Assembly (NCBI GenBank): GCA_012964435.1
Contig: DTTX01000083.1
Coordinates: 1-62,666 of the forward strand
DNA from: Mesonia sp.
Lineage (GTDB): Bacteria; Bacteroidota; Bacteroidia; Flavobacteriales; Flavobacteriaceae
Direction of reading: 5' to 3'
Length of the DNA stretch: 62,666 nucleotides
The notes under the pieces: generated by a model
The model's input: the letters and a program-made list of their open reading frames with translations, nothing else
Told to the model about the DNA's origin: nothing
The model's database searches: none
Program-made: the position numbers and the translations under genes
Part shown: positions 6,074 through 36,492 of the stretch, in pieces
Numbering within the stretch: position 1 is the stretch's first letter
Layout of the letters: every line of letters begins with the position of its first letter

Positions 6074-6349
6074 ATGAAAAAACAAAAAGACACCTACAAT
6101 TCAGAAATTACCAAGCAAGAAAAAGAAATGCTAGACCAAGAAAATATTCATCAAGATGGTGGCGACGATGAAAATCTAGCTAACAGAAAAAAAGATGTTG
6201 ATTTTACAGGTAACGATCTTGATGTTCCCGGCAGTGAGAAAGCAAAAAAAGGAAATGGTCCTAACGGATTAAAAGATGAAGAAAATGACTTGTATAGCCA
6301 AGGAGGAAATAATAATGATCTAGAAGAAGATAAAAGTAGTAAAGGATAA
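6074..6349 (+). CDS. small highly charged protein with DLDVPGSE motif
   Basis: 91 residues, with no hydrophobic core, signal or membrane segment. It is rich in Lys, Asp, Glu, Asn and Gly and therefore probably disordered. Readable blocks are NRKKDVDF, NDLDVPGSEKAKKGNGPNG, DEENDLYSQGG and the acidic tail NNDLEEDKSSKG. From memory, short proteins with the same NRK..VDF / DLDVPGSE / YS.GG blocks occur throughout the Flavobacteriaceae as conserved hypotheticals. A hydrophilin-like stress role is only a guess. ATG at 6074 is preceded by an A-rich stretch and no Shine-Dalgarno. It stands alone between the divergent esterase and the Pel-like operon. Confidence 0.75.
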   Translation: MKKQKDTYNSEITKQEKEMLDQENIHQDGGDDENLANRKKDVDFTGNDLDVPGSEKAKKGNGPNGLKDEENDLYSQGGNNNDLEEDKSSKG

Positions 6350-6467: not shown

Positions 6468-7961
6468 ATGCCTAAAATTAAAGTGATGTTGATTACCGAA
6501 GGAACTTACCCGTTTAATGGCGGCGGAGTTTCTACTTGGGCACATATACTTTGTAATCAGGTAAATAACGCAGACTTCACCCTATACTCTATTAATGCTT
6601 TTTTTGAAGAAAAATCGAAATACGAGTTAAGTGATCACGTAGAAAAAGTAATACAAGTACCACTCTGGACTCCCGATGAACCTTATGATTATATAAGTTA
6701 CGGAGAAGAATACTATAAAACCGTAGGAAGAAAAGAATGGACTACTGAAAAGTGCATCAAAGAAAAATTTGTGCCTTTATTTGAAGAACTTTTGCAAATG
6801 ATTTACGATGAAAATCAAAATATGCAAAAGTTAGATTATCTATTTAAGCAGATTTGGCTGTATTTTGAAGATTACGATTATAAAGAAACCATGCGTAACG
6901 TACACGTTTGGGATACTTATGTAAAAATTGTTTCCGGTAATATTCAAAAGAAAAATAATCCATCGGCAGCCTTAATGGATATTACGGTAGGAATGCGATG
7001 GATCTACAGATTTTTAATTCCGTTAGCGATCGTAGATATTCCTAAAGTTGATATTTCTCACTTAACGTTGAGTGGTTTCCCGTTAATTCCTGCATTAATA
7101 GCCAATTACAAATACGGTACGCCAATTATGCTTACCGAACATGGCGTTTTTATTAGAGAACGATTATTAGCGATTAATAATTCTGAATATCCGTTTTTTT
7201 TGAAAAATATGCTTATCAAATTTTCAGAAACGATCTCTCGTTTAGTGTATTATAAATCTGAAGCGATCGTTTCTGTAAATCTTTTCAACAAAAAATGGGA
7301 AATTCTTTATGGAGCAAATCCAGATAAGATCAAAGTAATTTATAACGGAATCGATCACGAACTTTTTAAACCGCGTGAAAAACCAAAACATTTAGTTGGG
7401 ATACCAACTGTGGTTGCGGCCGCTAGAATTTTTGAACTCAAAGATATTTTAACAATGATCAGGTCTTGTGCCGTGGTAAAAGAAAAAATACCGAATGTAC
7501 AATACTTAATTTATGGAGATAATAACGCAGTACCCGAATATACTGCAGAGTGTGTTGCCTTGATCGAAGAATTAAAATTACAAGAGAATTTTAAATTAAT
7601 GGGGCCAAAATCTGATCCTCATCTTATTTTTCCCGAAGGTGATATTTCTATTTTAACGTCAATTTCAGAAGGTTTTCCCTACACGGTCTTAGAATCTATG
7701 GGATGTGGTATTCCTGTGGTTGCAACAGATGTTGGCGGAGTTAAAGAAGCATTAGATGAACATTCGGGTTTTGTATGTAAACCTAAAAATCATCAAGAAA
7801 TTGGAGAAAATGTTATAAAATTGCTTCAAAATGAAGAGTTGAGAAAATCGATGGGAATTAATGCCAGAAAACGAGTAGTAGATAACTTTACGCTTAAAAA
7901 TTTTATCGATCAATATGAAGAGGTTTACAACGCGGTAAGTAAAGTAGAAACTGTATCTTAA
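6468..7961 (+). CDS. pelF: PelF-like GT4 glycosyltransferase
   Basis: 497 residues, the length of PelF, the cytosolic UDP-sugar transferase that makes Pel exopolysaccharide. The N-terminal signature LITEGTYPFNGGGVSTWAH (residues 8-26) is the PelF/DUF3492 start, where a glycine-rich loop follows the Glu. The C-terminal half is a GT-B, family 4 domain with KVIYNGIDHELFKP and a donor-site E-x7-E block in SISEGFPYTVLESMGCG (about 400-408), then PVVATDVGGVKEAL. It opens a five-gene run; its stop and the next start overlap (TAATG at 7959-7963). No strong promoter is visible upstream (TATTTTCG at 6440-6447 is one mismatch off the -7 consensus). Family assignment is firm; that the product is Pel-like (GalNAc/GlcNAc) is inference from the neighbours. 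Confidence 0.88.
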   Translation: MPKIKVMLITEGTYPFNGGGVSTWAHILCNQVNNADFTLYSINAFFEEKSKYELSDHVEKVIQVPLWTPDEPYDYISYGEEYYKTVGRKEWTTEKCIKEKFVPLFEELLQMIYDENQNMQKLDYLFKQIWLYFEDYDYKETMRNVHVWDTYVKIVSGNIQKKNNPSAALMDITVGMRWIYRFLIPLAIVDIPKVDISHLTLSGFPLIPALIANYKYGTPIMLTEHGVFIRERLLAINNSEYPFFLKNMLIKFSETISRLVYYKSEAIVSVNLFNKKWEILYGANPDKIKVIYNGIDHELFKPREKPKHLVGIPTVVAAARIFELKDILTMIRSCAVVKEKIPNVQYLIYGDNNAVPEYTAECVALIEELKLQENFKLMGPKSDPHLIFPEGDISILTSISEGFPYTVLESMGCGIPVVATDVGGVKEALDEHSGFVCKPKNHQEIGENVIKLLQNEELRKSMGINARKRVVDNFTLKNFIDQYEEVYNAVSKVETVS

Positions 7962-9568
7962 TGCCTATGAATCGGGAAGATTTACTAGATAAGCTTATCA
8001 ATTCTATCAAAGAAAGAAATGGTAAACCGGTAAACCTAAGAGTGGTTGCTGCTACTATTGAATCTTTAGGAATTCGAGATGTAGATATCGTGAACGATTA
8101 TGGTTTTGATTCTATTTTTGATATTGCCGAATATATTTTTAATCTACTTAATCAACAGTCGGAGCTTAAAAATAAATATCAAAAAGCGGCAGATGTAAAA
8201 AATCTTCAGAAAATTTCGTTAAACGCATATACTTCTGTAAAACAGAAAATGTTTGTAAAAGAATACAGTACGGGTATTTTTCATCTATTTCCGGTTTTTT
8301 TACAAGTTATTTCAATTATAATTTTCGGTATTTCTCTTTGGACGTACACGGGTTTTAATAATTTACAATCTACAGCTGTTGTATTGGGCGTAATCATTGG
8401 TTTAGTGACCACCGGTGGTTTTGTACAAGTGATTGGCAAGCAAGTTTCTTTTTATTGGTACAATGAAGATTATTTAATGACGCGACGTACCACACAAAAA
8501 ATTCTTATTACTGGTATTAAAAGCTTAGTAGTAACTTTTTTAATAATTGCCGGCTTAAACTTTTTTATACACCTTTACCCTTATCAATTTGTACTTATCG
8601 TTTTTATATATTCTTTTTTAATAGGTGTTTTACTTTTGGTATTATCTCCATTATATACCATAAAACAACGCTGGGTAATTTCTGTAGCAATAGTCGCAGG
8701 AACTGCTATAACGCTGAGTTTATATTTTTTTACAGCAATTTCGATCTATTTTGTACATTGGATCGGTATTGTTATTTCTATTGCTATCTCATCAACTTAT
8801 TTGCATTATTTCTTCAAAAAAACGATTACTACTAAAAAAGGATTATACAATGCTACTCCAAAAATGATGCTTTCTGTATATAGAAGTTTTAATTATTTCT
8901 TCTACGGAATTTTGATTTATGCTTTCATTTTCACCGATCGTATTTTAGCTTGGTCTTCAACACTTAATAGAAATTTACCATACGTTGTTTATTATGAAAA
9001 AGATTACGAGATCGGGATGGATTTGGCCATTTTGGTTTTCTTTTTACTTGCAGGTGTTTTAGAATATAGTATAGCCTCCTTTAGTAGAAATATGGATTAT
9101 TGGCAACGCAAATTAAAGTATAATAAAATAGAGCTTTTTAATGTAAATATGAAGAAACTCTACTTTAAGCACCTAAGATTATTTTTTATAAGTGCCCTGG
9201 TTATTGGAATTTTACTTTATGGTATAATCACTAAACCTTGGGGTTACCAAGCCGGCTTTGACGAGAATTTATCAGCAGTAAGTATAAATGTATGTCTAAT
9301 TGGTAGTTTTGGTTATTTATTTTTCACATTAGGGATGCTTAATGTTTTATATTTGTACACACTTAATCAGCATAAAAAGCCTTTAATAGGAATTTTGATC
9401 GCTTTTTTTATAAATTTATTTGTAGGCATTTTATTAAGTAGAACTGTCTCTTACGAATATAGCTCGATTGGTATGCTAATTGGTTCATTATTTTTTATGC
9501 TATATACCACAAAAACAACGATAGCATATTTTAAAAATTTAGATTACTATTTCTATGCAGCCTACTAA
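7961..9568 (+). CDS. pelG: PelG-like polytopic polysaccharide transporter with N-terminal extension
   Basis: 535 residues. About 95 hydrophilic residues come first, then roughly 12 membrane segments beginning near residue 105 (FHLFPVFLQVISIIIFGISLW). The segment GFVQVIGKQVSFYWYNEDYLMTRRTTQK resembles the loop of PelG transporters (MATE/PST-like) in which a membrane helix is followed by a basic cytosolic stretch. Position directly behind pelF, as in known pel operons, supports PelG. Pseudomonas PelG is near 456 residues, so the N-terminal extension is extra. It contains GIRDVDIVNDYGFDSIFDIAE, faintly like an acyl-carrier Asp-Ser site (Ser51), but this may be coincidence. The start overlaps pelF by 1 base and the end overlaps the next gene by 14 bases, which implies translational coupling. 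Confidence 0.7.
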   Translation: MPMNREDLLDKLINSIKERNGKPVNLRVVAATIESLGIRDVDIVNDYGFDSIFDIAEYIFNLLNQQSELKNKYQKAADVKNLQKISLNAYTSVKQKMFVKEYSTGIFHLFPVFLQVISIIIFGISLWTYTGFNNLQSTAVVLGVIIGLVTTGGFVQVIGKQVSFYWYNEDYLMTRRTTQKILITGIKSLVVTFLIIAGLNFFIHLYPYQFVLIVFIYSFLIGVLLLVLSPLYTIKQRWVISVAIVAGTAITLSLYFFTAISIYFVHWIGIVISIAISSTYLHYFFKKTITTKKGLYNATPKMMLSVYRSFNYFFYGILIYAFIFTDRILAWSSTLNRNLPYVVYYEKDYEIGMDLAILVFFLLAGVLEYSIASFSRNMDYWQRKLKYNKIELFNVNMKKLYFKHLRLFFISALVIGILLYGIITKPWGYQAGFDENLSAVSINVCLIGSFGYLFFTLGMLNVLYLYTLNQHKKPLIGILIAFFINLFVGILLSRTVSYEYSSIGMLIGSLFFMLYTTKTTIAYFKNLDYYFYAAY

Positions 9569-10361
9569 ACTTTTTGTTATGGTGTTTAGCTTTCTTTTAG
9601 GAGGGTTTGCCTCTGCACAAGAATTTAAAAACGAAGTACTCTTTTGTTATGGCGACTTTTATCCTGAACAAATTAAAGGCTATCAAACCGTTGTTTTAGA
9701 AGGATCTCACTTTTCTAAAGCAGATATAGAAATTCTTAAAAAACAAAATAAAACCGTATTAGGGTATATTAGTTTAGGTGAAGTTAATTCCGATGCGGCT
9801 TATTATGATAGTTTAAAAGAATTTACCTTAGGCAAAAATGAAATTTGGGATAGTTATATTTTAGACCTTGAAAATCACTATACTTCAGAAGTGTTATTAA
9901 AACTTTTTAATGAAGCGATGCAAACCAAAGGTCTAGACGGTTTATTCTTAGATAATGTAGATAATTATGGACCCTACGGTCCCACTCCAGAAAAGCTTCC
10001 GGCATTAGTTTCATTTTTAGTCAAAGTAAAAGAATTATATCCTGAAATCTATTTACTACAAAATGCAGGAGTTTTTATCACCGATCAAACTCAAGAGTAC
10101 ATCAACGCAATGGCGATAGAATCTGTAGCTTCAGATTATAATTTTAAAACAAATAAGTATAGACTTCGGAATTTTAAAGAATTTGAAGAACAATTAGAAA
10201 GACTAAAAGAAATTCACGAACAGTATGATCTCCCGATTATTCTAATAGAATATGCAGATACAAAAAAATTAAGAAGTAAGATCTTAGAGCGTATAAATCC
10301 TACTTCTTGGCCTTATTTTATTGGAGGTATACAACTACAAAAATTACCTGAGTTTAAGTAG
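9555..10361 (+). CDS. exported PelA-type glycoside hydrolase (TM1410 / GH114-GH166-like)
   Basis: 268 residues with a signal peptide (cleavage near ASAQ, residue 22). A single TIM-barrel-type domain follows: YISLGEVN (71-78), the acidic strand GLFLDNVDNYG (129-139, Asp133/Asp136), LLQNAG (167-172), AIES (187-190, Glu189) and LIEYA (230-234). These are the strand-end motifs of the TM1410-like family that includes endo-alpha-1,4-polygalactosaminidases and the N-terminal hydrolase of PelA. In Pseudomonas this hydrolase is fused to a deacetylase in PelA; here it is a separate protein and the deacetylase lies three genes further on. Likely role: trimming or releasing the exported polymer in the periplasm. 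Overlaps the previous gene by 14 bases. Confidence 0.8.
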   Translation: MQPTKLFVMVFSFLLGGFASAQEFKNEVLFCYGDFYPEQIKGYQTVVLEGSHFSKADIEILKKQNKTVLGYISLGEVNSDAAYYDSLKEFTLGKNEIWDSYILDLENHYTSEVLLKLFNEAMQTKGLDGLFLDNVDNYGPYGPTPEKLPALVSFLVKVKELYPEIYLLQNAGVFITDQTQEYINAMAIESVASDYNFKTNKYRLRNFKEFEEQLERLKEIHEQYDLPIILIEYADTKKLRSKILERINPTSWPYFIGGIQLQKLPEFK

Positions 10362-10372
10362 AATAAAATTAT

Positions 10373-12367
10373 ATGTTTTTTACTCCAGATCTTTTTTTAG
10401 GACCATTAAGAATAGCCATTTTCTTAGTGTTTGTTTATTTTCTAAATAGACTGGTTACTTTAAAACTTTCTAACCAAGTAGGCTTAGATTATTTTATTCC
10501 CAGATACACGATGCTTATTAGTGTTTTGGTGATTATAAGTTTATTTCTCACTCAAGTAAATGCCTATGATCTAATGACGATCTTGGTACTATTATTATTT
10601 TTTATATTTCTTTCTTTTATCAACTTAAAAAAAGATAAATCTTACTTAGATCAGCTCAGAAAAATTAGAAGTAGGTTAATAATTTATACCATTAGAAATT
10701 TTGAAAAACGTCGAAAGATCATTTCTAGAGAGAATCTTAATAAACGTAAAGATGTAGAAAAAACCGACCAAGAAAAAATCTCTAATAAAGAGCGTATTTG
10801 GCAAATTGGGATTGGTTTGGTATTAGCAATTACCGGATTTTTATCTAGATTTTTTTTCTTTAGGTATGATACCTACTCCCTCTCCGATCCTTGGTACAAC
10901 AGCTTAGAGAATATTAAAGATATTAGTAATCAAAATTGGTTTTTTCATAAAGGAACAATGATGGGCGATTATGCCATTATGAACTTTTATGGTGCACTTA
11001 CCGATATTAGTGATTTGATTATTATTGAATCTTTCGGTCTTTTAGAAACTTCTCTTATCGCGGTAATTATATTTTGGATACTTTATAAAATTACACACGC
11101 CAAATTTATTCCGGGTTTAATCGCATCACTTTCATTTTTATTTCTATATGCATTTTTACCTTTAAATTTGAATTTATTGGTTCAACATAAGCCCAGTTTT
11201 TTAGCACTTACAATTGCTTTACCAACGGTAATTTTTGTACTAAACCCAACCTATCTTAGAAAGAAAATGAGTAGTTATTTTATTTGGATAACCATCATTT
11301 TTACAGCTTGCTTTTTTCTAGACCTGTTTGTTACGTTAGTTGTGCTTTTACCTCTCATATTTTTATCATTAATCTTTTCATTTAAATGCAATAAACATTA
11401 CTTGTTGCGCACATTCGCGGCATTCGATATTGCATTATTGGTAGTCTTAGGTTCTAACTTTATAGCAAGTTTTGTAAAAAATGTAAGTCTGCTTGACTAT
11501 TTTGCTTCAAATTTATTTTCATTAAATATATATTCTTATACTCCGCAGTTAATTACTTCAATATCTAATTTAATTTATTATTACCAGTGGTTGGCTGCAA
11601 TTACTTTAGCTTTCGCATTAGTACTTTTTATAAAAGATCGAAAAAAATGGTTGCAGGTAATCGTGTTCTTGATCTACATTAATATTTTGCTATCACTCAA
11701 TTATTTTGAAGATTCAACACTAGACTTAGATTTGGTATATCAGGTGATCTCTGTATTTATACCTATTTTATTTGGTATTACATTTTTTGTTTTATTAAAA
11801 TTTATAGCTTTTATCATTCCTAAATTCACGTTGAATCTTCCGGTTAGAATAGCGATCACTATAATTTCTATTACTGCGATTATATTCTTTTTAAGTAAAA
11901 ATCCGCTTTCTAAAGTTCCTTATCAACATAACGTAATGAAGGAGCAAATTATACAAGCCTACGATAAATTAGACAGTAAGCTTCTGCCCTATTCTTACGC
12001 TGTCGCAAATACTTATCAAAATGTAGCAATTAGTAAGAACAGTCATTTTTTTATTGATTATTCTTATTTTAATAAAGACTATTTAGTTCAGGATTCGATA
12101 TATCATAAATTCAAAAAAGATGAAGAATATTTAAAAAGTCATCCTGATGTAATTTTACCTAAAAGCACATTTGTTTTCATCTACAAAGATAACCCTTTAG
12201 CAAACGAGGTAACTAATGCAGAAACACAATTAGAAACCAAAGAAAATCTTGAGGTTCTTCGTAAACGAGGAAGAGACGTTAATCTATTCTTCAAAAAAAA
12301 TCTAGTTGAAGTTTATGAAGTCGTTAATGAACCAAATTCAAGCAAAATAAATGATCTAATATTTTAA
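10373..12367 (+). CDS. large polytopic membrane protein, GT-C-like, in the Pel-like operon
   Basis: 664 residues, which I do not recognise as a named family. Three helices (about 12-26, 46-62, 66-84) precede a basic cytosolic segment (85-145). Roughly ten further helices (146-507) and a soluble C-terminal domain of about 155 residues (508-664) follow. The first large loop (164-222) has the acidic/aromatic stretch FRYDTYSLSDPWYNSLE. Placement of acidic residues in the first extracytoplasmic loop, many helices and a soluble tail recalls GT-C glycosyltransferases (STT3/PMT/ArnT type), so a lipid-linked sugar or modifying transferase is possible. It occupies the place where other pel operons have PelD/PelE, but no GAF, GGDEF or TPR sequence is visible. 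It begins 11 bases after the hydrolase and ends directly against the next ATG. Confidence 0.75.
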   Translation: MFFTPDLFLGPLRIAIFLVFVYFLNRLVTLKLSNQVGLDYFIPRYTMLISVLVIISLFLTQVNAYDLMTILVLLLFFIFLSFINLKKDKSYLDQLRKIRSRLIIYTIRNFEKRRKIISRENLNKRKDVEKTDQEKISNKERIWQIGIGLVLAITGFLSRFFFFRYDTYSLSDPWYNSLENIKDISNQNWFFHKGTMMGDYAIMNFYGALTDISDLIIIESFGLLETSLIAVIIFWILYKITHAKFIPGLIASLSFLFLYAFLPLNLNLLVQHKPSFLALTIALPTVIFVLNPTYLRKKMSSYFIWITIIFTACFFLDLFVTLVVLLPLIFLSLIFSFKCNKHYLLRTFAAFDIALLVVLGSNFIASFVKNVSLLDYFASNLFSLNIYSYTPQLITSISNLIYYYQWLAAITLAFALVLFIKDRKKWLQVIVFLIYINILLSLNYFEDSTLDLDLVYQVISVFIPILFGITFFVLLKFIAFIIPKFTLNLPVRIAITIISITAIIFFLSKNPLSKVPYQHNVMKEQIIQAYDKLDSKLLPYSYAVANTYQNVAISKNSHFFIDYSYFNKDYLVQDSIYHKFKKDEEYLKSHPDVILPKSTFVFIYKDNPLANEVTNAETQLETKENLEVLRKRGRDVNLFFKKNLVEVYEVVNEPNSSKINDLIF

Positions 12368-15300
12368 ATGAAGCAAAACTACCCTCACATATTATTATGG
12401 TTTTGTCTTACAATTTTATTAGGCTTGGTGTCTTGTAAAAAAGAGAATATTTATCCAAAATTTAAATCTAAAGAACCCACCAAACAAGTGGTCTATCCCG
12501 AATACAGCAAAAATCCGTTAGTAGAATATATTCTTTATACACCAAATGAAGAAAGTGAAAATTGTCATGATCATATTCGAAAAACCTTAGATTATGCTAA
12601 GATTCCGTTTAATGCGATCAACCTTAAAGACTTCAATAAAAAAGAGAAAATTAGCAAGTCAACTCGAGTTGTTGTGATTTTTGATATTGGAGTATTAAAT
12701 AATTCAGCTTATCAAAAACTATTAAAATTTATTGCTAAAGGTGGTACCGTATTTCTGCCCAATTATTCTAGCGATGAAAAATTCGGATTTTTAGCCGGGG
12801 TAAAATCAGACGCCGGTTATAATATAGATAAAGAAGCGACCGGATATAATTTTAAAATGAGTTTTTTACCGGGAATGAAAAATAATGTGTTTAGAAATAA
12901 AATTCCTCATTTTGGTTTAAAACGTGAAAATTTTAGAGAAGATATTAACGTTTGGGCAACTGCTTATAGCGATGCAAACTATCCTACAATTATACATAAT
13001 CAGCTAGGTAACGGGCACGTAATTGCATTTAACAGTTCTCAATTTTCTGAGCGTCAGGATCGCGGGATGTTTTTTGCTTCAATTTTAATGGGATTAGAAA
13101 ATGTACCTTATTCTATTGCAAACGTTTCTAGTATTTTTTTAGACGATTTCCCTGCTCCACTATATGATATTTATGCAGAAACTGTAAAATCTGAGATGAA
13201 TCTTTCTCAAGCACAATTTTATAAAAATGTGTGGTGGCCGGATATGATCAAACTGGCTAAAGAAGAAAATTTAATTTATTCTACTTATCCCTGTTTTGAT
13301 TATAGAAATATTACCGAACCTCCTTTTTTATATAAAGAATGGGATCATAAATCTACCACATTAAAAGAAAATGCTAGTGACGCTCCAGATTTTTTAATGA
13401 ATCGTGCTTTAAAAGAAGATGTAGAAATAGGATTGCACGGCTACAACCACGTATCATTATTAAAAGAAGATTGGCCCAATAAAGACTTTATGGTATTGGC
13501 ACTAAATTCTGCTGAAAAAAAATGGATCTCTTCCGGTTATGGTAAATTGCCAAGAACTTACGTACCACCATCAAATCATATCGATAGTTTAGGTTTTACC
13601 GCTTTACAGCAAGCGATACCTACAATTCGATATAATTCGAGCTTGTATCTGGGAGATTTTGAAGATGGTGGTGGTCGAGAATTTGATCCTGAACCTTACA
13701 ATTCTCATTTTTATAATTTCCCGAGAATTACTTCTGGTTACGATTTAGATTCTGAAAATCAATTTCTACAGCATTCTTTGTATTTATATACGGGAATCTG
13801 GTCGCATTTTATACATCCCGACGATGTTTTTCAAGTTCCAAGTGAAAACAATTTGAGTCATGGAGATTATGGCTATCGTAACTCAAATCGTTTAGGCTGG
13901 CGAAACTCTAAAGACAAAAAATTAGGTTTTCTTCCAATCTTTCGAAATTATATTCAGAAAACAAACAAGATTTATCCATTCATTAAATATGAAACGGTTA
14001 TTAATGCAGCAAAACATACAGAGAATTGGAGAAATAGTAAAGTTGAATATATATTTAAGGAAGATAGTGTGAAAGTAAATTCAACTTTAAACGTAAATGA
14101 AAACTATTGGTTTACGTATATCCCTAAAGATAAAATAACCAATACCGAAGAGTTCTTAAATTCAAAAAAATTAAAATTTTCTAAAAGAGAGTTTCTGCAA
14201 GGTTATTTATTAAATATCAAAACTAACAAAAAACAACTAAGCCTTCCATATTGTAATAAAAATAATGCTGAAAATTCTTTAGTAGAAAAACAAATTTTAA
14301 GTAACTACGCTACATATTTAAGCAATTTTGAAGATATACAGGATGAATATTCAGATATTCCTACACAAGAGCGAATCGCCTCTTTACAACAAAAATTAAA
14401 TTCTTCATCTTTAACTTATGAAGAGTGGCAAGATCTCTATAAATTGTTAGGTTGGGAAAATCGTGAATTTGAGATTTGGACGTTATTAGAAAATTCTTTT
14501 CAGGAAAATCCGTCTAAACAATATGTGAGTTTATCTAGGCTTTTCACCCAAAATAGTGATTACCCAAATTTAGAAACCCGAAAACGCTGGATGTTGCGTC
14601 AAGCAATTTATTTTGAAGAAGAACCGGAATTAAAACTTCAATATTTATCTCAGTTTAAAAAAGATTCTATCCCTGACAATTTTACGATATCAGCTGAAAA
14701 TGTGGTAGAAATTATTGTTGCTGAAGAAAATGAACAAACACAAGAAGAATATCTTTACGGTTTAATTGAACATCAACCTGAATTGGCTAAAGAAGTGCTA
14801 ACCTTACTTTCTCCTTGTGCCGGTTTTGGAAATAATCTAAGTGAATCTATTGCTTGGTACTATATTCAACATAAAAATTATGATCAAGCTATTTCTTGGA
14901 GTAATTGTACCTCAAATATTGCAGAGGAAGAAATAACCGAATGGCGTTTGGCAAATGGAGAATTTTTATTCTTAAAACAAAAAGATTTCCCTCGATATAT
15001 CGAATTCTTACTGCAGAACAAACCAAAATTTGCTTTAAAAGAAGTTATAAATTTAAATTCTTGTGAAGGTTTCGGCTTAAACTCCCAAGCTACAGATCTA
15101 GCTTACGCGTTTGGCGAACAAGGCAGTTTTAGAAAAGCTTTAATTTGGTCTGAATGTGCTAAAAATTTTCCGGAGAACGATCGTTTGCAGTGGTTGTATG
15201 AGTTAGGAGATCTTCAAAAATTAGAGGCTGAATATTTCAGTTACATCGAGGCTCATCCTGAAGACGAAGCCATTAAAGCTACGATGGCGCAATTATATTT

Positions 15301-16375
15301 CTATGCCAATAAATTCGATAAAGCTTGGATGTTAGCTTCAACTTTAAAAGATTCACCTGAAAAAAATCAGTTACAAACCGAACTAAATAAAGAAGTACTT
15401 AATATCCCGGAAAAAGACCAGTTTGCTTTACTCGATGTGGAACCCGATTTCTTTCTGCCGGACGTTCGTAAAAACATCGAAAAGAAAAAGCGAATTCAGC
15501 AAAATGATTTTATCGAAACCAATTCAGAATTAATTAGTGATTTACTACAACCTACATCGCTCACGAATATCGTGGCTTATGGCGTAAGAGATAAAAAGCT
15601 TAATTCGCATACGTTTGGACTTACCCAATACAATGCTTATGCTTTAAATATTGACACTACATCGGTAAATAGAGATCATTATCTCTACGGTGTCCAATAT
15701 GGCTTTAAGACCAAAGAACGGTATGAAAAATTGAATTACGGGGGTAGCGCTCGAGTAGAATTTAACCAAGACCAAGATGTATTTTATCATCTAACGGCTG
15801 AAGCTTCTGTTTCTAAAGATAGTTTATTCAGTTCTTTCCAATTATTTCATCGTCCTGCCATTACGGGACCGGCGTATAGTTTAAATATTTATCAAACCCA
15901 ATTAAATATTTATGAAGAATGGAAAATTAATTCGCATTGGAATGCCATTGGTAACCTCGAAACCAATCATTACGACGATAAAAATGTGATCGATGCGATG
16001 ATTTTAGCTAATCTTTCTTATAACATACCGGTCACTAAATTTAGTAGTTTTAATCCTTACGTAGAAGGTTCCGGTTTGTTAGGAAATACAGATCTGGAGC
16101 AAGGTTATCCTTACTGGTCGGCCAAAGAACGTTTGTATGGTGGTTTGGGAGTTTCATATAACATTAAAAATGAAACCAAGCAAATTGATATGGGGATTGG
16201 CGCGGCGATGTTTTTAGATACTTTTTCTGATAGTTTTCAGCGTTATCGAGGGACTTTAAGTATGCCAGTATTCGATTATCTATTTGTCAATGCAAATGCT
16301 GAATTTTTCACGATTGAAAATTTCTATTCCAACAGTTTTCAACTCGGTTTAAAATATTACTTAAACTACGATTAA
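12368..16375 (+). CDS. fused PelA-type deacetylase + TPR + outer-membrane barrel (PelB-like)
   Basis: 1335 residues. The signal peptide ends in LVSC (Cys23), a possible lipobox. Residues 50-245 form a Rossmann-like domain (VVVIFDIG, GGTVFLPNYSS). Residues 250-550 are a CE4/DUF2194-type deacetylase: metal motif FLDDFPAP (Asp259/260), LHGYNH (His357 and His361, HxxxH), RTYVPPSNH (396-404) and SHFIHPDD (479-486). Residues 680-1000 are helical repeats, including two related units that start LLSPCAGFG and NLNSCEGFG, typical of TPR solenoids. Residues 1065-1335 alternate polar and aromatic residues like an outer-membrane beta-barrel and end LKYYLNYD. In Pseudomonas the deacetylase is in PelA and the TPR-barrel is PelB, two proteins that bind each other; here they are one chain. 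A lipobox on a barrel protein is odd, and cleavage by signal peptidase I is the alternative. It abuts the preceding gene with no gap. Confidence 0.82.
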   Translation: MKQNYPHILLWFCLTILLGLVSCKKENIYPKFKSKEPTKQVVYPEYSKNPLVEYILYTPNEESENCHDHIRKTLDYAKIPFNAINLKDFNKKEKISKSTRVVVIFDIGVLNNSAYQKLLKFIAKGGTVFLPNYSSDEKFGFLAGVKSDAGYNIDKEATGYNFKMSFLPGMKNNVFRNKIPHFGLKRENFREDINVWATAYSDANYPTIIHNQLGNGHVIAFNSSQFSERQDRGMFFASILMGLENVPYSIANVSSIFLDDFPAPLYDIYAETVKSEMNLSQAQFYKNVWWPDMIKLAKEENLIYSTYPCFDYRNITEPPFLYKEWDHKSTTLKENASDAPDFLMNRALKEDVEIGLHGYNHVSLLKEDWPNKDFMVLALNSAEKKWISSGYGKLPRTYVPPSNHIDSLGFTALQQAIPTIRYNSSLYLGDFEDGGGREFDPEPYNSHFYNFPRITSGYDLDSENQFLQHSLYLYTGIWSHFIHPDDVFQVPSENNLSHGDYGYRNSNRLGWRNSKDKKLGFLPIFRNYIQKTNKIYPFIKYETVINAAKHTENWRNSKVEYIFKEDSVKVNSTLNVNENYWFTYIPKDKITNTEEFLNSKKLKFSKREFLQGYLLNIKTNKKQLSLPYCNKNNAENSLVEKQILSNYATYLSNFEDIQDEYSDIPTQERIASLQQKLNSSSLTYEEWQDLYKLLGWENREFEIWTLLENSFQENPSKQYVSLSRLFTQNSDYPNLETRKRWMLRQAIYFEEEPELKLQYLSQFKKDSIPDNFTISAENVVEIIVAEENEQTQEEYLYGLIEHQPELAKEVLTLLSPCAGFGNNLSESIAWYYIQHKNYDQAISWSNCTSNIAEEEITEWRLANGEFLFLKQKDFPRYIEFLLQNKPKFALKEVINLNSCEGFGLNSQATDLAYAFGEQGSFRKALIWSECAKNFPENDRLQWLYELGDLQKLEAEYFSYIEAHPEDEAIKATMAQLYFYANKFDKAWMLASTLKDSPEKNQLQTELNKEVLNIPEKDQFALLDVEPDFFLPDVRKNIEKKKRIQQNDFIETNSELISDLLQPTSLTNIVAYGVRDKKLNSHTFGLTQYNAYALNIDTTSVNRDHYLYGVQYGFKTKERYEKLNYGGSARVEFNQDQDVFYHLTAEASVSKDSLFSSFQLFHRPAITGPAYSLNIYQTQLNIYEEWKINSHWNAIGNLETNHYDDKNVIDAMILANLSYNIPVTKFSSFNPYVEGSGLLGNTDLEQGYPYWSAKERLYGGLGVSYNIKNETKQIDMGIGAAMFLDTFSDSFQRYRGTLSMPVFDYLFVNANAEFFTIENFYSNSFQLGLKYYLNYD

Positions 16376-16379
16376 GTTT

Positions 16380-16408
16380 TTGTGCTCCTTTCATTTTAGC
16401 TACTTTTG
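16380..16408 (+). promoter_or_regulatory. promoter of recQ
   Basis: TTG (16380-16382), 18 bases, then TACTTTTG (16401-16408): a full match to the Bacteroidota consensus TTG-N(17-23)-TAnnTTTG. Transcription would begin about 20 bases before the recQ ATG at 16433. Confidence 0.62.
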
Positions 16409-16432
16409 TAAGTCCTAAATTTTTTCTTGACG

Positions 16433-18550
16433 ATGGCTGAAGCAACTTTAAATGAATACCTCTATCCTACTTTAAAAAAATATTTTGGTTACGACCAATT
16501 TAGACCAAAGCAAGAAGAGATCATCACCAACGTACTCGAGGGTAACGACACCTTAGTAATTATGCCCACCGGTGGCGGAAAATCAATTTGTTACCAACTT
16601 CCCGCCTTATTGTTTGAAGGGGTTACGCTGGTAATTTCACCGTTAATTGCTTTAATGAAAGATCAGGTAGATGGTTTAAACGCCAACGGAATTGAAGCAG
16701 AATACTTCAACAGCAGTCAAGACAGCCTCAAGCAACAAGAAATTTTAGATCAGGTTGCGCAAAAGAAACTCAAATTATTATATGTCGCTCCAGAAAGTCT
16801 TTCGGCATTAAACGATATTTTAAAAGAAAGTTATATTAGTTGTATTGCGATCGATGAAGCCCATTGTATTTCTTCTTGGGGACACGATTTTAGACCCAGT
16901 TACCAACAATTAGGTTTTCTAAAACGCTCATTACCTCAAACACCGATCATTGCACTAACCGCCACGGCAGACAAAGCCACGCGCCAAGATATTTTGGAGC
17001 AATTAAATATCCCAAATGCGCAACAGTTTTTAAGTTCTTTTGACCGTAAGAATATTAAACTTGAAGTACGTCCTGCAGAAAATCGAGTGAAGCAAATCTT
17101 AGATTTTGTTGAAAAAAGACGTGAAGAATCAGGTATAATTTATTGTTTAAGTAGAAAAGGTACTGAAAAACTTGCTGAAAAACTTCAACATAAAGGAATC
17201 AAAGCAACTGCTTACCACGCCGGCTTAAGTTTTGAAAATCGCTCCAAAGTACAGGAAGACTTTATTTTTGATAAAACAAAAGTAGTTTGTGCCACGGTAG
17301 CTTTCGGGATGGGGATCGATAAATCGAATGTTCGCTTCGTGATCCATTACAATATGCCTAAAAATATTGAAGGCTATTACCAAGAAATTGGCCGTGCCGG
17401 TCGTGATGGTTTAGCTTCTAACGCGTTGCTTTTTCATACATATGCTGATGTGATTCAACTAAGAAGGTTTACCGAAGGTGCTTCTAATGAAGATTTACAA
17501 AACGCCAAACTCGATCGGATGAAAGAGTTTGCAGAAGCGACCGATTGCCGAAGAAAAATTTTATTGGGCTATTTTGGCGAATATCTAGAAGAAAATTGTG
17601 GGAATTGCGACGTTTGTGAAAATCCGCCTCGATTTTTTGACGGAACCATTTATGCTCAAAAAATATTATCCTGTGTGGCAAGACTTCAAAATAGTGAACC
17701 CGCAGGTATTGTGATCGATGTATTGCGTGGCGCACAAAATGCAGCGATTCTCTCCAAAAACTATCAACACATTAAAACTTATGGCGCCGGTAAAGAGACC
17801 GCTTGGCGAGATTGGCAGCATTACCTTACACAATTGATCAATCAAGGTTTTTGCGAAATTGCTTTTCATCGTCAAAACGCTTTACAATTAACCGATGTGG
17901 CCAAAAAAGTTTTATTTGAAAAAGAAAAAGTCTGGCTAACCAAACCTAAAGATCTTAAAGAGCAAACTAAAAAATCTAACGCTCCAACTGCTAAAGAGAA
18001 AAAAGTTAAGAAAGAAAGTCTTTTTGAAAAGTTGCGCCAGCTTCGTTATCAAATCTCGCAAGAAGAAGACATCCCGGCCTACTTGATTTTTAATGATGCT
18101 ACACTTAAAGAAATTGAACGCAAACGCCCGTTAAGTGAAGATGATTTCTTAAAAATTAGCGGAGTTGGTGAGCGTAAATTAGAAGTTTACGGAGATTTAT
18201 TTATGGCTGAAATTAAAAAATTTAATCAGCAGAAAAAGAAAAAAGCCAATACGCATAAAGTGACTTTAGATCTTTACCAACAAGGTCTCAATGTCGAAGA
18301 AATTGCTGAAAAAAGAAACCTGGCAGCAACTACTATTTACTCTCATATCGCAAAACTATATACTGAAAATAAAGGCATAAATATCTTAGATTTCGTAGAA
18401 CAAGCAACCATCAATCAAATTAAGAAAGCAAAAGCTGCCCTAGATTCACCAGATAGTCTAAAACCCTATTTTGAATACTTCAAAGAAGAAATACCTTACT
18501 TTAAAATTCGATTAGCCTTAAGTGCGATCGAAAAAGAAACCACCGCATAA
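16433..18550 (+). CDS. recQ: ATP-dependent DNA helicase RecQ
   Basis: 705 residues from ATG 16433 (a TTG two codons upstream is the only alternative). Superfamily 2 helicase core: Walker A MPTGGGKS (44-51), DEAH box (141-144) with the RecQ-specific aromatic loop HCISSWGHDFRPS, and motif VI QEIGRAGRDG. The RQC zinc site is formed by the Cys of ATDCRRKILLGYFGE and of CGNCDVC. An HRDC domain (about 520-600, LRQLRYQISQEEDIPAYLIF) follows. The C-terminal helix-turn-helix extension (DLYQQGLNVEEIAEKRNLAATTIYSHI) is frequent in Bacteroidota RecQ. 3'-5' unwinding in recombination and repair is the family role. It has its own promoter, so it is independent of the Pel-like operon that ends 57 bases upstream. 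Confidence 0.97.
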   Translation: MAEATLNEYLYPTLKKYFGYDQFRPKQEEIITNVLEGNDTLVIMPTGGGKSICYQLPALLFEGVTLVISPLIALMKDQVDGLNANGIEAEYFNSSQDSLKQQEILDQVAQKKLKLLYVAPESLSALNDILKESYISCIAIDEAHCISSWGHDFRPSYQQLGFLKRSLPQTPIIALTATADKATRQDILEQLNIPNAQQFLSSFDRKNIKLEVRPAENRVKQILDFVEKRREESGIIYCLSRKGTEKLAEKLQHKGIKATAYHAGLSFENRSKVQEDFIFDKTKVVCATVAFGMGIDKSNVRFVIHYNMPKNIEGYYQEIGRAGRDGLASNALLFHTYADVIQLRRFTEGASNEDLQNAKLDRMKEFAEATDCRRKILLGYFGEYLEENCGNCDVCENPPRFFDGTIYAQKILSCVARLQNSEPAGIVIDVLRGAQNAAILSKNYQHIKTYGAGKETAWRDWQHYLTQLINQGFCEIAFHRQNALQLTDVAKKVLFEKEKVWLTKPKDLKEQTKKSNAPTAKEKKVKKESLFEKLRQLRYQISQEEDIPAYLIFNDATLKEIERKRPLSEDDFLKISGVGERKLEVYGDLFMAEIKKFNQQKKKKANTHKVTLDLYQQGLNVEEIAEKRNLAATTIYSHIAKLYTENKGINILDFVEQATINQIKKAKAALDSPDSLKPYFEYFKEEIPYFKIRLALSAIEKETTA

Positions 18551-35475: not shown

Positions 35476-36492
35476 TTATTTCGGTTGCTTTTGTTGCCAT
35501 TTCCAGGCACTTGCTAAAGCATCTTTCATATCAAATCTAGCTTTCCAGCCAAGATCTGAATTTGCTTTAGTAGTGTCTGCATAGGCTGCAATTACGTCTC
35601 CTTCTCTTCTAGCTACAATTTTATGCGGAAGTTTTTCACCAGCAACTTCTTCAAAAGTATTTACAACTTCAAGCACAGAATTTCCTTTACCCGTACCTAA
35701 ATTAAATACTTCATAATTTTTCTTATTGTTATTCTTTATTAGTCTTTGCAAAGCAACTACGTGAGCTTCGGCTAAATCCATCACGTGAATATAATCTCGA
35801 ATACACGTACCATCTTGTGTCGGATAATCGTCACCAAATACAGATAGTTCTGCTCTAATTCCTGCAGCAGTTTGCGTGATATACGGAATTAAATTTTGTG
35901 GAGTACCAATAGGTAATTCTCCAATTTCTGCAGTTGGATGAGCCCCAATCGGATTAAAATAACGTAATGCAATAGCTTTAAACGAGTCATTGGTTTTTGC
36001 AAAATCTCTAATGATCTCTTCTCCAATTTGCTTTGTATTTCCGTAAGGCGATTCTGCTTGCTTTACCGGAGCGTTTTCTGTAATTGGTAATTCATCTGCC
36101 TGCCCGTAAACCGTACAAGAAGAACTAAAAATAAAATTAGAAAGTTCTTTTCTTCTCATCTCTTGAAGAATATGAACCAATGTATTTATATTGTTTTCAT
36201 AATATAAAAGAGGTTTTTCAACACTTTCACCTACTGCTTTAGAAGCGGCAAAATGTATGATCCCTTCAAGGTCTAGGTGTTCTTCAAAAAATTGCTCTAC
36301 GCGTTCTTTATCTCTTAAATCTATTTTATGAAATTCCGGAGATTTATTGGTGATTTTGGTAATCCCTTCTAACACAGAGATCGTTGAATTTGATAAATTA
36401 TCGATAATAACAACTTCAAAACCTTCATTTAAAAGTGCAACAACAGTATGTGAACCAATAAAACCAAGTCCACCGGTAACTAATATTTTCAT
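35476..36492 (-). CDS. galE: UDP-glucose 4-epimerase
   Basis: 338 residues, standard GalE length. NAD-binding GGLGFIGSHTV (7-17), DNLSNS (31-36), HFAASKAVGES, catalytic Ser in FSSSCTVYG (about 123-125), Tyr150 and Lys154 in SPYGNTK, and YFNPIGAHPTAEIGE then GDDYPTQDGTCIRDYIHVMDLA are all present. Interconverts UDP-Glc and UDP-Gal; related enzymes also act on UDP-GlcNAc/GalNAc, so it could feed the Pel-like locus, though it is 19 kb away and the link is speculative. No terminator separates it from the convergent yqaE gene. Confidence 0.96.
   Translation of the reverse strand: MKILVTGGLGFIGSHTVVALLNEGFEVVIIDNLSNSTISVLEGITKITNKSPEFHKIDLRDKERVEQFFEEHLDLEGIIHFAASKAVGESVEKPLLYYENNINTLVHILQEMRRKELSNFIFSSSCTVYGQADELPITENAPVKQAESPYGNTKQIGEEIIRDFAKTNDSFKAIALRYFNPIGAHPTAEIGELPIGTPQNLIPYITQTAAGIRAELSVFGDDYPTQDGTCIRDYIHVMDLAEAHVVALQRLIKNNNKKNYEVFNLGTGKGNSVLEVVNTFEEVAGEKLPHKIVARREGDVIAAYADTTKANSDLGWKARFDMKDALASAWKWQQKQPK

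Follow-up and report, generated by a model that had tools for sequence, protein, structure and literature searches.

The 62,666-nucleotide contig DTTX01000083.1 of Mesonia sp. (assembly GCA_012964435.1), below called the window, probably carries at positions 6468–16375 an operon for the synthesis and secretion of a Pel-like exopolysaccharide, in a form conserved in Bacteroidota. Its five genes are predicted to encode a PelF-type glycosyltransferase of family 4 (GT4), a PelG-like inner-membrane exporter, a PelA-type glycoside hydrolase, a membrane protein of the GT-C glycosyltransferase fold, and a fusion (below, the fusion) of a PelADA-type deacetylase with a tetratricopeptide-repeat (TPR) and beta-barrel porin. 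A preliminary description, made from the sequence alone, had placed five abutting or overlapping genes here, and this is confirmed: the five open reading frames (ORFs) have the same coordinates, lie on the plus strand and are all open. Along the operon, successive ORFs overlap by 1 base, overlap by 14 bases, are 11 bases apart and 0 bases apart.

The operon was compared with two samples, the best 80 of 163 relatives retrieved with a PelG profile (the named loci) and 395 Bacteroidota genomes, of which the 27 with a full-length DUF2194 fusion are called cluster genomes; the two sets overlap by three genomes. Searches with single sequences by phmmer covered 3138 ORFs of 108 loci, including L057 and L058, which have a marginal DUF2194 match and no cluster and were excluded from the alignments. 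The same gene order, for which the preliminary description had proposed to search other Bacteroidota, was found in 76 of the 80 named loci, and the other four (L064, L097, L133, L134) run off the contig end; a contig end also truncates the fusion gene of L085, L101, L107, L109 and L117, which are among the 76. Hence the five-gene arrangement is not due to chance. The DUF2194 cut-off is passed by 28 of the 395 genomes, 27 of which have the domain in a frame of 1268–1349 amino acids, and all 27 contain the other four genes; in G243 the hydrolase gene is located upstream, unlike in other cluster genomes. The PelG frame of L052 is short and its hydrolase frame split, and this locus was excluded from both alignments. 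The nearest PelG relatives among the best 80 of 163 are from Mesonia oceanica and M. mobilis, with 81–82% identity.

The pelF gene encodes a PelF-type GT4 glycosyltransferase, as had been proposed, with 174.1 bits against the cut-off of 100 for NCBIfam NF038011 and 182.4 bits for Pfam DUF3492. The residues E401 and E409 are invariant in 106 of 106 rows (here and below, invariance was counted with a minimum frame length of 1200 amino acids for the fusion, 240 for the hydrolase and 450 for PelF, and with three genomes counted twice). In the midpoint-rooted tree the PelF clade joins PelFs of the Deinococcota and Actinomycetota (support 100/99), apart from canonical PelF, with the canonical and Cetobacterium PelFs on long branches whose joining is unsafe. 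A split PelF frame was observed in one relative (L099:9126–10010).

The third gene had been described as encoding a secreted TM1410-type hydrolase. Secretion agrees with an apparent signal peptide, and the family has to be changed. In a search of PDB sequences the hydrolase profile matched the PelA chains 9cgy (3e-28) and 5tcb (6e-28) and TM1410 at about 1e-9; TM1410 is thus ruled out as the nearest relative, PelA being better by about 18 orders of magnitude. Pfam GH114 is matched at 57.7 bits, over the cut-off, and the NCBIfam TM1410 family at 31 bits, far below its cut-off. Neither D133 nor E189 varies in any of the 101 rows, and E189 aligns with a glutamate that differs between the chains 5tcb and 5tsy, the latter presumably being the E218A mutant of PelA. 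The PelA glycoside hydrolase domain of canonical Pel systems is, then, present. Split hydrolase frames were seen in two relatives (L052:6435–7298, L117:11571–12128).

The last gene indeed encodes a 1335-residue deacetylase/TPR/barrel protein, with 212.1 bits for Pfam DUF2194. Its front part aligns with Bacillus cereus PelADA, 9zau, at 9.5e-48 over residues 30–497, that is, over the carbohydrate-binding module (CBM) and carbohydrate esterase (CE) domains, and in PDB sequences the profile of the fusion finds 9zau at E 2e-76. The catalytic residues of PelADA, D262, D263, H350, H354, H488 and D491 (PMC13254593, in excerpt), are matched by the motifs DD, HxxxH and HPDD, and the six residues are invariant in 98 of 98 rows. 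PelA is absent among the 48 PDB sequences found with the fusion profile at E up to 1, and PelA of Pseudoalteromonas THAF3 matched only hydrolase ORFs among the 3138 at E<1e-3. Judging by these comparisons, the deacetylase belongs to the PelADA family known from B. cereus and does not correspond to the CE21 part of PelA from Pseudomonas. Of the earlier idea of a PelA split in two, with the deacetylase half fused to PelB, the separate hydrolase and the deacetylase attached to a PelB-like TPR/barrel part stand; the identification of this deacetylase with the PelA half does not. The structure 9zau was not among the structure-search matches of the fusion, the library ending in April 2026 and its holding of 9zau being unchecked.

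The back part of the fusion models as a helical solenoid and a 16-strand barrel, the nearest structures being PgaA, BcsC and PelB, and so the TPR region and 16-strand barrel expected of PelB are present in the model. The TPR families of Pfam match up to four of 27 homologues and none in the window copy, and in the alternation test the row of L055 showed no clear excess (3 against 2.5 in shuffled sequences). In Pseudomonas, the deacetylase domain of PelA was modelled on TPRs 9–15 of PelB, and the PelAB interaction enhances deacetylation (PMC12022489, in excerpt). A natural fusion would fit this coupling.

The PelG-like exporter was the transporter of the preliminary description. Pfam PelG (PF16933) aligns along most of the protein, residues 111–532 against profile positions 34–452, and links to canonical PelG by phmmer or by the protein's own profile are lacking. 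Pfam PelG has matches at E<=0.1 in 11 of 26 alignment members, the best at 2e-9. The PelG cut-off is passed by five of the 395 genomes, with the match at this cluster in all five, and 12 non-cluster genomes among the 395 give partial matches, all below the cut-off. By hmmsearch the cluster PelG profile found PelG of Deinococcus at E 0.0015 and of Thermus at 0.013; hhalign against single sequences gave no canonical or Deinococcus PelG above probability 20. The N-terminal extra stretch (window 7961–8260) contains a conserved motif ATxESxGxRxxD and may dock PelF. A similar motif is seen in the PelG-position proteins of Deinococcota and Actinomycetota (L139, L142, L149, L150, L151), with weak scores where tested.

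Several observations weigh against a Pel-like operon. The PelG-like protein scores 24.7 bits, below the Pfam cut-off of 29; any PelG match at E<=0.01 is found in only ten of the 27 cluster genomes; canonical PelG recovered no cluster PelG among the 3138 ORFs, the matches of the THAF3 and Cetobacterium PelGs all being above E 0.01; and the cluster PelG profile found neither of these two proteins. Since the score is below the cut-off, the genome matches are few and single canonical PelGs are unlinked, the PelG assignment is the least certain one in the operon. For the fusion, the AlphaFold2 model has a predicted template-modelling score (pTM) of 0.48, and hence its domain layout is uncertain; canonical PelB of THAF3 has no match at E up to 1 in the 3138 ORFs, the fusion profile reaches canonical PelB only at E 0.79, and the barrel profile has zero matches in PDB sequences. 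A counterpart of PelC was not found in the operon loci. For the GT-C-fold protein, the structure match has a root-mean-square deviation of 7.3 A and Foldseek TM-scores of 0.29–0.40 over rows 1–27; in the first outer loop, which we take to be the catalytic loop of GT-C enzymes, D166 is invariant in 81 of 81 copies of the flavobacterial type only, and the 22 other copies have no acidic residue conserved there at 95%.

Table 1. Features of the window: the five operon genes, predicted domains of the fusion, and a gene outside the operon
Feature	Position	Strand	Basis
PelF-type GT4 glycosyltransferase, 497 amino acids (aa), presumed polymerase	6468..7961	+	NF038011, DUF3492, invariant residues
PelG-like inner-membrane exporter, 535 aa, divergent, N-terminal extra stretch of ~100 residues	7961..9568	+	Pfam PelG, below cut-off
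PelA-hydrolase-type glycoside hydrolase of 268 aa; signal peptide apparent on visual inspection	9555..10361	+	profile matches, GH114
Polytopic membrane protein, predicted GT-C fold, 664 aa	10373..12367	+	model fold
PelADA-TPR-barrel fusion, 1335 aa, predicted deacetylase and outer-membrane porin	12368..16375	+	Pfam DUF2194
Fusion: N-terminal signal, lipobox-like LVSC motif ending at residue 23	12368..12436	+	pattern match only
Fusion: CBM114-like alpha/beta/alpha domain, approximate extent	12500..13117	+	alignment with N-terminal part of B. cereus PelADA
Fusion: CE26-type deacetylase domain, approximate; D259, D260, H357, H361, H483, D486	13130..14035	+	
Fusion: TPR-like helical solenoid	14273..15502	+	AlphaFold2 helices, model residues 501-910
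Fusion: predicted 16-strand outer-membrane beta-barrel	15509..16360	+	
GalE-type epimerase, outside the operon	35476..36492	-	TIGR01179, 417.6 bits (cut-off 262.3)

Two early matches of the lipobox pattern in relatives, L054 and L055, are untrusted. The GalE-type epimerase of the window possibly supplies the UDP-N-acetylgalactosamine precursor. A charged, Asn/Gly-rich ORF of 91 residues lies 5' of pelF (window 6074–6349); it was matched in four of the 80 named loci, all from Mesonia (L059, L060, L061, L105), and the fifth Mesonia locus begins at pelF. The loci L085 and L097, whose assemblies bear the names Bifidobacterium breve and Sphingobacterium thalpophilum, have PelF-PelG of the flavobacterial type, and these labels of metagenome-assembled genomes look wrong or contaminated.

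The preliminary description held PelC, PelD and PelE to be missing or replaced, and none was found. For PelD, none of the 395 genomes has a match over the cut-off, and two non-cluster genomes have weak matches below it, in a search that PelD without the GGDEF part would escape; the control, the canonical Pseudoalteromonas plasmid, scored 36.8 bits. In the 3138 ORFs of the 108 loci, PelD of THAF3 and the Cetobacterium GAF protein and PelE gave matches only above E 0.01. PelE of THAF3 had no match at E up to 1 in the same ORFs, single-sequence queries being a weak test, nor had PelC, in loci only and with a type of query that also missed PelG and PelB. The PelC protein is essential in Pseudomonas aeruginosa (PMC12141448, in excerpt).

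The absence of c-di-GMP control was predicted together with that of PelD, and it is probable. With a threshold of E<=1e-4, 24 of the 27 cluster genomes gave no GGDEF match, including that of the window, an incomplete assembly (3.05 Mb, 94 contigs, 90.5% complete), three of these 24 being single-contig genomes; in the control set the domain was detected in eight of 14. The three cluster genomes with GGDEF are G243, G011 and G016. Since most sampled hosts lack the domain, a c-di-GMP input is unlikely. Pel systems without c-di-GMP have a precedent: in Streptococcus intermedius PelD has no GGDEF domain, yet PelD is still in the system (PMC12345266, in excerpt).

The fourth gene, whose product had been called novel, encodes a protein that models as a recognisable GT-C fold, with the core starting at about residue 133 after extra N-terminal helices, and with a C-terminal alpha/beta domain (about residues 518–651) retained across copies. 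The gene is present in every one of the 27 cluster genomes and of the 76 loci that reach it before the contig ends. Its profile has no match in the two Pel operons compared, one of them canonical and the other from Fusobacteriota, and one chance match (E 0.45) in PDB sequences, and tblastn of the protein against plasmids gave no match. Polar residues are kept: R159 in 103 of 103 copies, D451 in 102 and D453 in 94 of 103. One function that may be considered is a non-catalytic scaffold that replaces PelD and PelE and tethers PelF, PelG and the periplasmic parts. The failure to find PelD and PelE is consistent with it, as is the lack of a first-loop acidic residue common to both lineages and, within the window operon, of a synthase dedicated to polyprenyl sugars; the conservation of R159, D451 and D453 and of the C-terminal domain argues against it, and we consider the scaffold possible, if somewhat improbable.

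The loci of three other Bacteroidota families (labels f24, f13, f31), that is, all 22 loci not of the flavobacterial type, contain a gene for an HD-domain protein, in 21 of the 22 between pelG and the hydrolase gene (e.g. L042:4987–6540, plus strand; L050:13397–15025, minus strand). The tyrosine of the GYP motif is retained in one of the 21 matchable copies (G243), the L046 copy being unmatched. Since GGDEF was not detected in 19 of the 22 genomes, the HD protein of GGDEF-free hosts is probably not a c-di-GMP phosphodiesterase. Of six upstream stretches read, five (four from f24, one from f13) contain a second GT4 gene and one or two response-regulator-like genes. The one stretch run against Pfam, that of L143, encodes a hybrid histidine kinase, a response regulator and a GT4 with the DUF3492 domain of PelF. 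In G243 the hydrolase gene lies upstream together with genes for a GT4 and an anti-sigma-type ATPase, and SpoIIE, HD and STAS genes precede the fusion.

A second polygalactosaminidase-type gene adjoins pelF in 29 of the 108 loci (27 distinct genomes), 104–444 bases upstream, on the same strand in 20 and divergent in nine (e.g. L074:7213–8199, minus strand; L131:7183–8199, plus strand). It stays by pelF although its orientation flips between lineages, which suggests a functional link with PelF. With one of these proteins as the query, the sole match in the window was the operon hydrolase (E 0.034).

The product of the operon could be another polymer of amino sugars, either mixed in composition or nearer to fungal galactosaminogalactan, with the PelF and PelG-like parts reused and the GT-C protein building side chains from a polyprenyl-phosphate sugar. 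The constancy of the GT-C gene, as set against the two Pel operons without a match, points this way, as do the second PelF-like GT4 upstream of many non-flavobacterial loci and the grouping of PelF with the Deinococcota and Actinomycetota (100/99, on long branches and with a midpoint root), one of whose loci has an Agd3-type CBM87 and deacetylase. Against it, both modifying enzymes are from families tied to polymers of alpha-1,4-linked N-acetylgalactosamine (GalNAc) and galactosamine, and the window operon has a single GT4 and no sugar-nucleotide genes; we regard a different polymer as rather unlikely. Split frames in a few relatives (hydrolase in L052 and L117, PelF in L099) would fit a non-functional remnant that retains its gene order. 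This reading is hardly credible: the catalytic residues of the three enzymes do not vary (98, 101 and 106 rows), the order is kept in 76 of 80 loci and the five window frames are open.

For the Pel-like operon we infer polymer identity, activities, topology and control as follows. PelF would polymerise GalNAc in the cytoplasm, as expected from its family, and the PelG-like protein would move the chain across the inner membrane; as a guess, its N-terminal extra stretch may hold PelF instead of PelD and PelE. The PelADA domain, given its domain content and catalytic residues, would partly de-N-acetylate the chain, and the attached TPR/barrel part would export it through the outer membrane; since the PelADA domain is covalently joined to its own exporter, modification and export would be carried out by one machine. 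The separate PelA-type hydrolase presumably trims the chain in the periplasm. The GT-C protein, if the model is right, most likely acts on the chain as it emerges on the outer side of the inner membrane, by adding a sugar from a polyprenyl-phosphate donor or by linking the chain; alternatively, it may serve as a scaffold in the place of PelD and PelE.

A bolder proposal, which we put forward tentatively and think rather unlikely, is a third class of Pel machinery peculiar to c-di-GMP-free Bacteroidota. An active GT-C enzyme on the outer side of the inner membrane would decorate or anchor the chain and replace the PelD/PelE control, so that membrane-enzyme modification, not a second messenger, sets synthesis; in a wider branch of Bacteroidota the shared core would be connected to a two-component and HD-domain relay instead.

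Most work on Pel concerns proteobacteria and some Gram-positives, in which it is a biofilm polymer gated by c-di-GMP. Our results suggest that many Bacteroidota may run a Pel-like system without this signal. The natural deacetylase-porin fusion would independently support the model in which PelA and PelB of Pseudomonas are coupled, and, being a single protein, it offers a ready construct for structural studies of the coupling of modification to export; the conserved GT-C protein is a candidate new, testable Pel-like component. The matches listed in searches of open-access literature included neither a Pel system of Bacteroidota nor a fusion of PelA with PelB nor a Pel-operon gene for a GT-C protein; DUF2194 is mentioned in two papers.

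The closest known systems share different subsets of these parts. The Deinococcota and Actinomycetota loci have the related PelF clade, a PelG-position protein with the similar N-terminal motif and polygalactosaminidase genes; they differ by the Agd3-type deacetylase of one locus, and the DUF2194 and GT-C profiles found nothing in the two loci searched (L139, L142). In L139, a Deinococcus plasmid locus, the Agd3-type CBM87/deacetylase protein (14970–17117) lies beside polygalactosaminidases, and this locus looks like a bacterial version of the fungal galactosaminogalactan machinery. The Fusobacteriota cluster, on a plasmid of Cetobacterium somerae, shares the hydrolase, the DUF2194 deacetylase, PelF and PelG; its own features are a GAF-domain gene in the position of pelD, a DUF2194 protein that is not fused (609 aa) and a PelG that scores 417.6 bits.

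The canonical pelABCDEFG of P. aeruginosa and Pseudoalteromonas THAF3 shares PelF, the PelG-like protein, the PelA-type hydrolase, a deacetylase and the TPR/16-strand-barrel exporter. In the window operon, however, the hydrolase and the deacetylase are on separate proteins, the deacetylase is not CE21-like by sequence, PelC, PelD and PelE were not found, and the GT-C protein is added; the lack of PelD and of the CE21 deacetylase sets the operon apart from canonical Gram-negative Pel. With the B. cereus operon, pelDEADAFG (PMC7112168, in excerpt), it shares PelF, the PelG-like exporter and the PelADA deacetylase family, whereas in the window PelD and PelE were not found, the deacetylase is fused to the TPR/barrel part, the GT-C protein is added and the hydrolase is inside the operon. 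Since its deacetylase appears to be of the PelADA family and not CE21, the operon is best described as a hybrid of a Gram-positive-type deacetylase, a Gram-negative-type porin and a GT-C component, rather than a reshuffled Pseudomonas operon.

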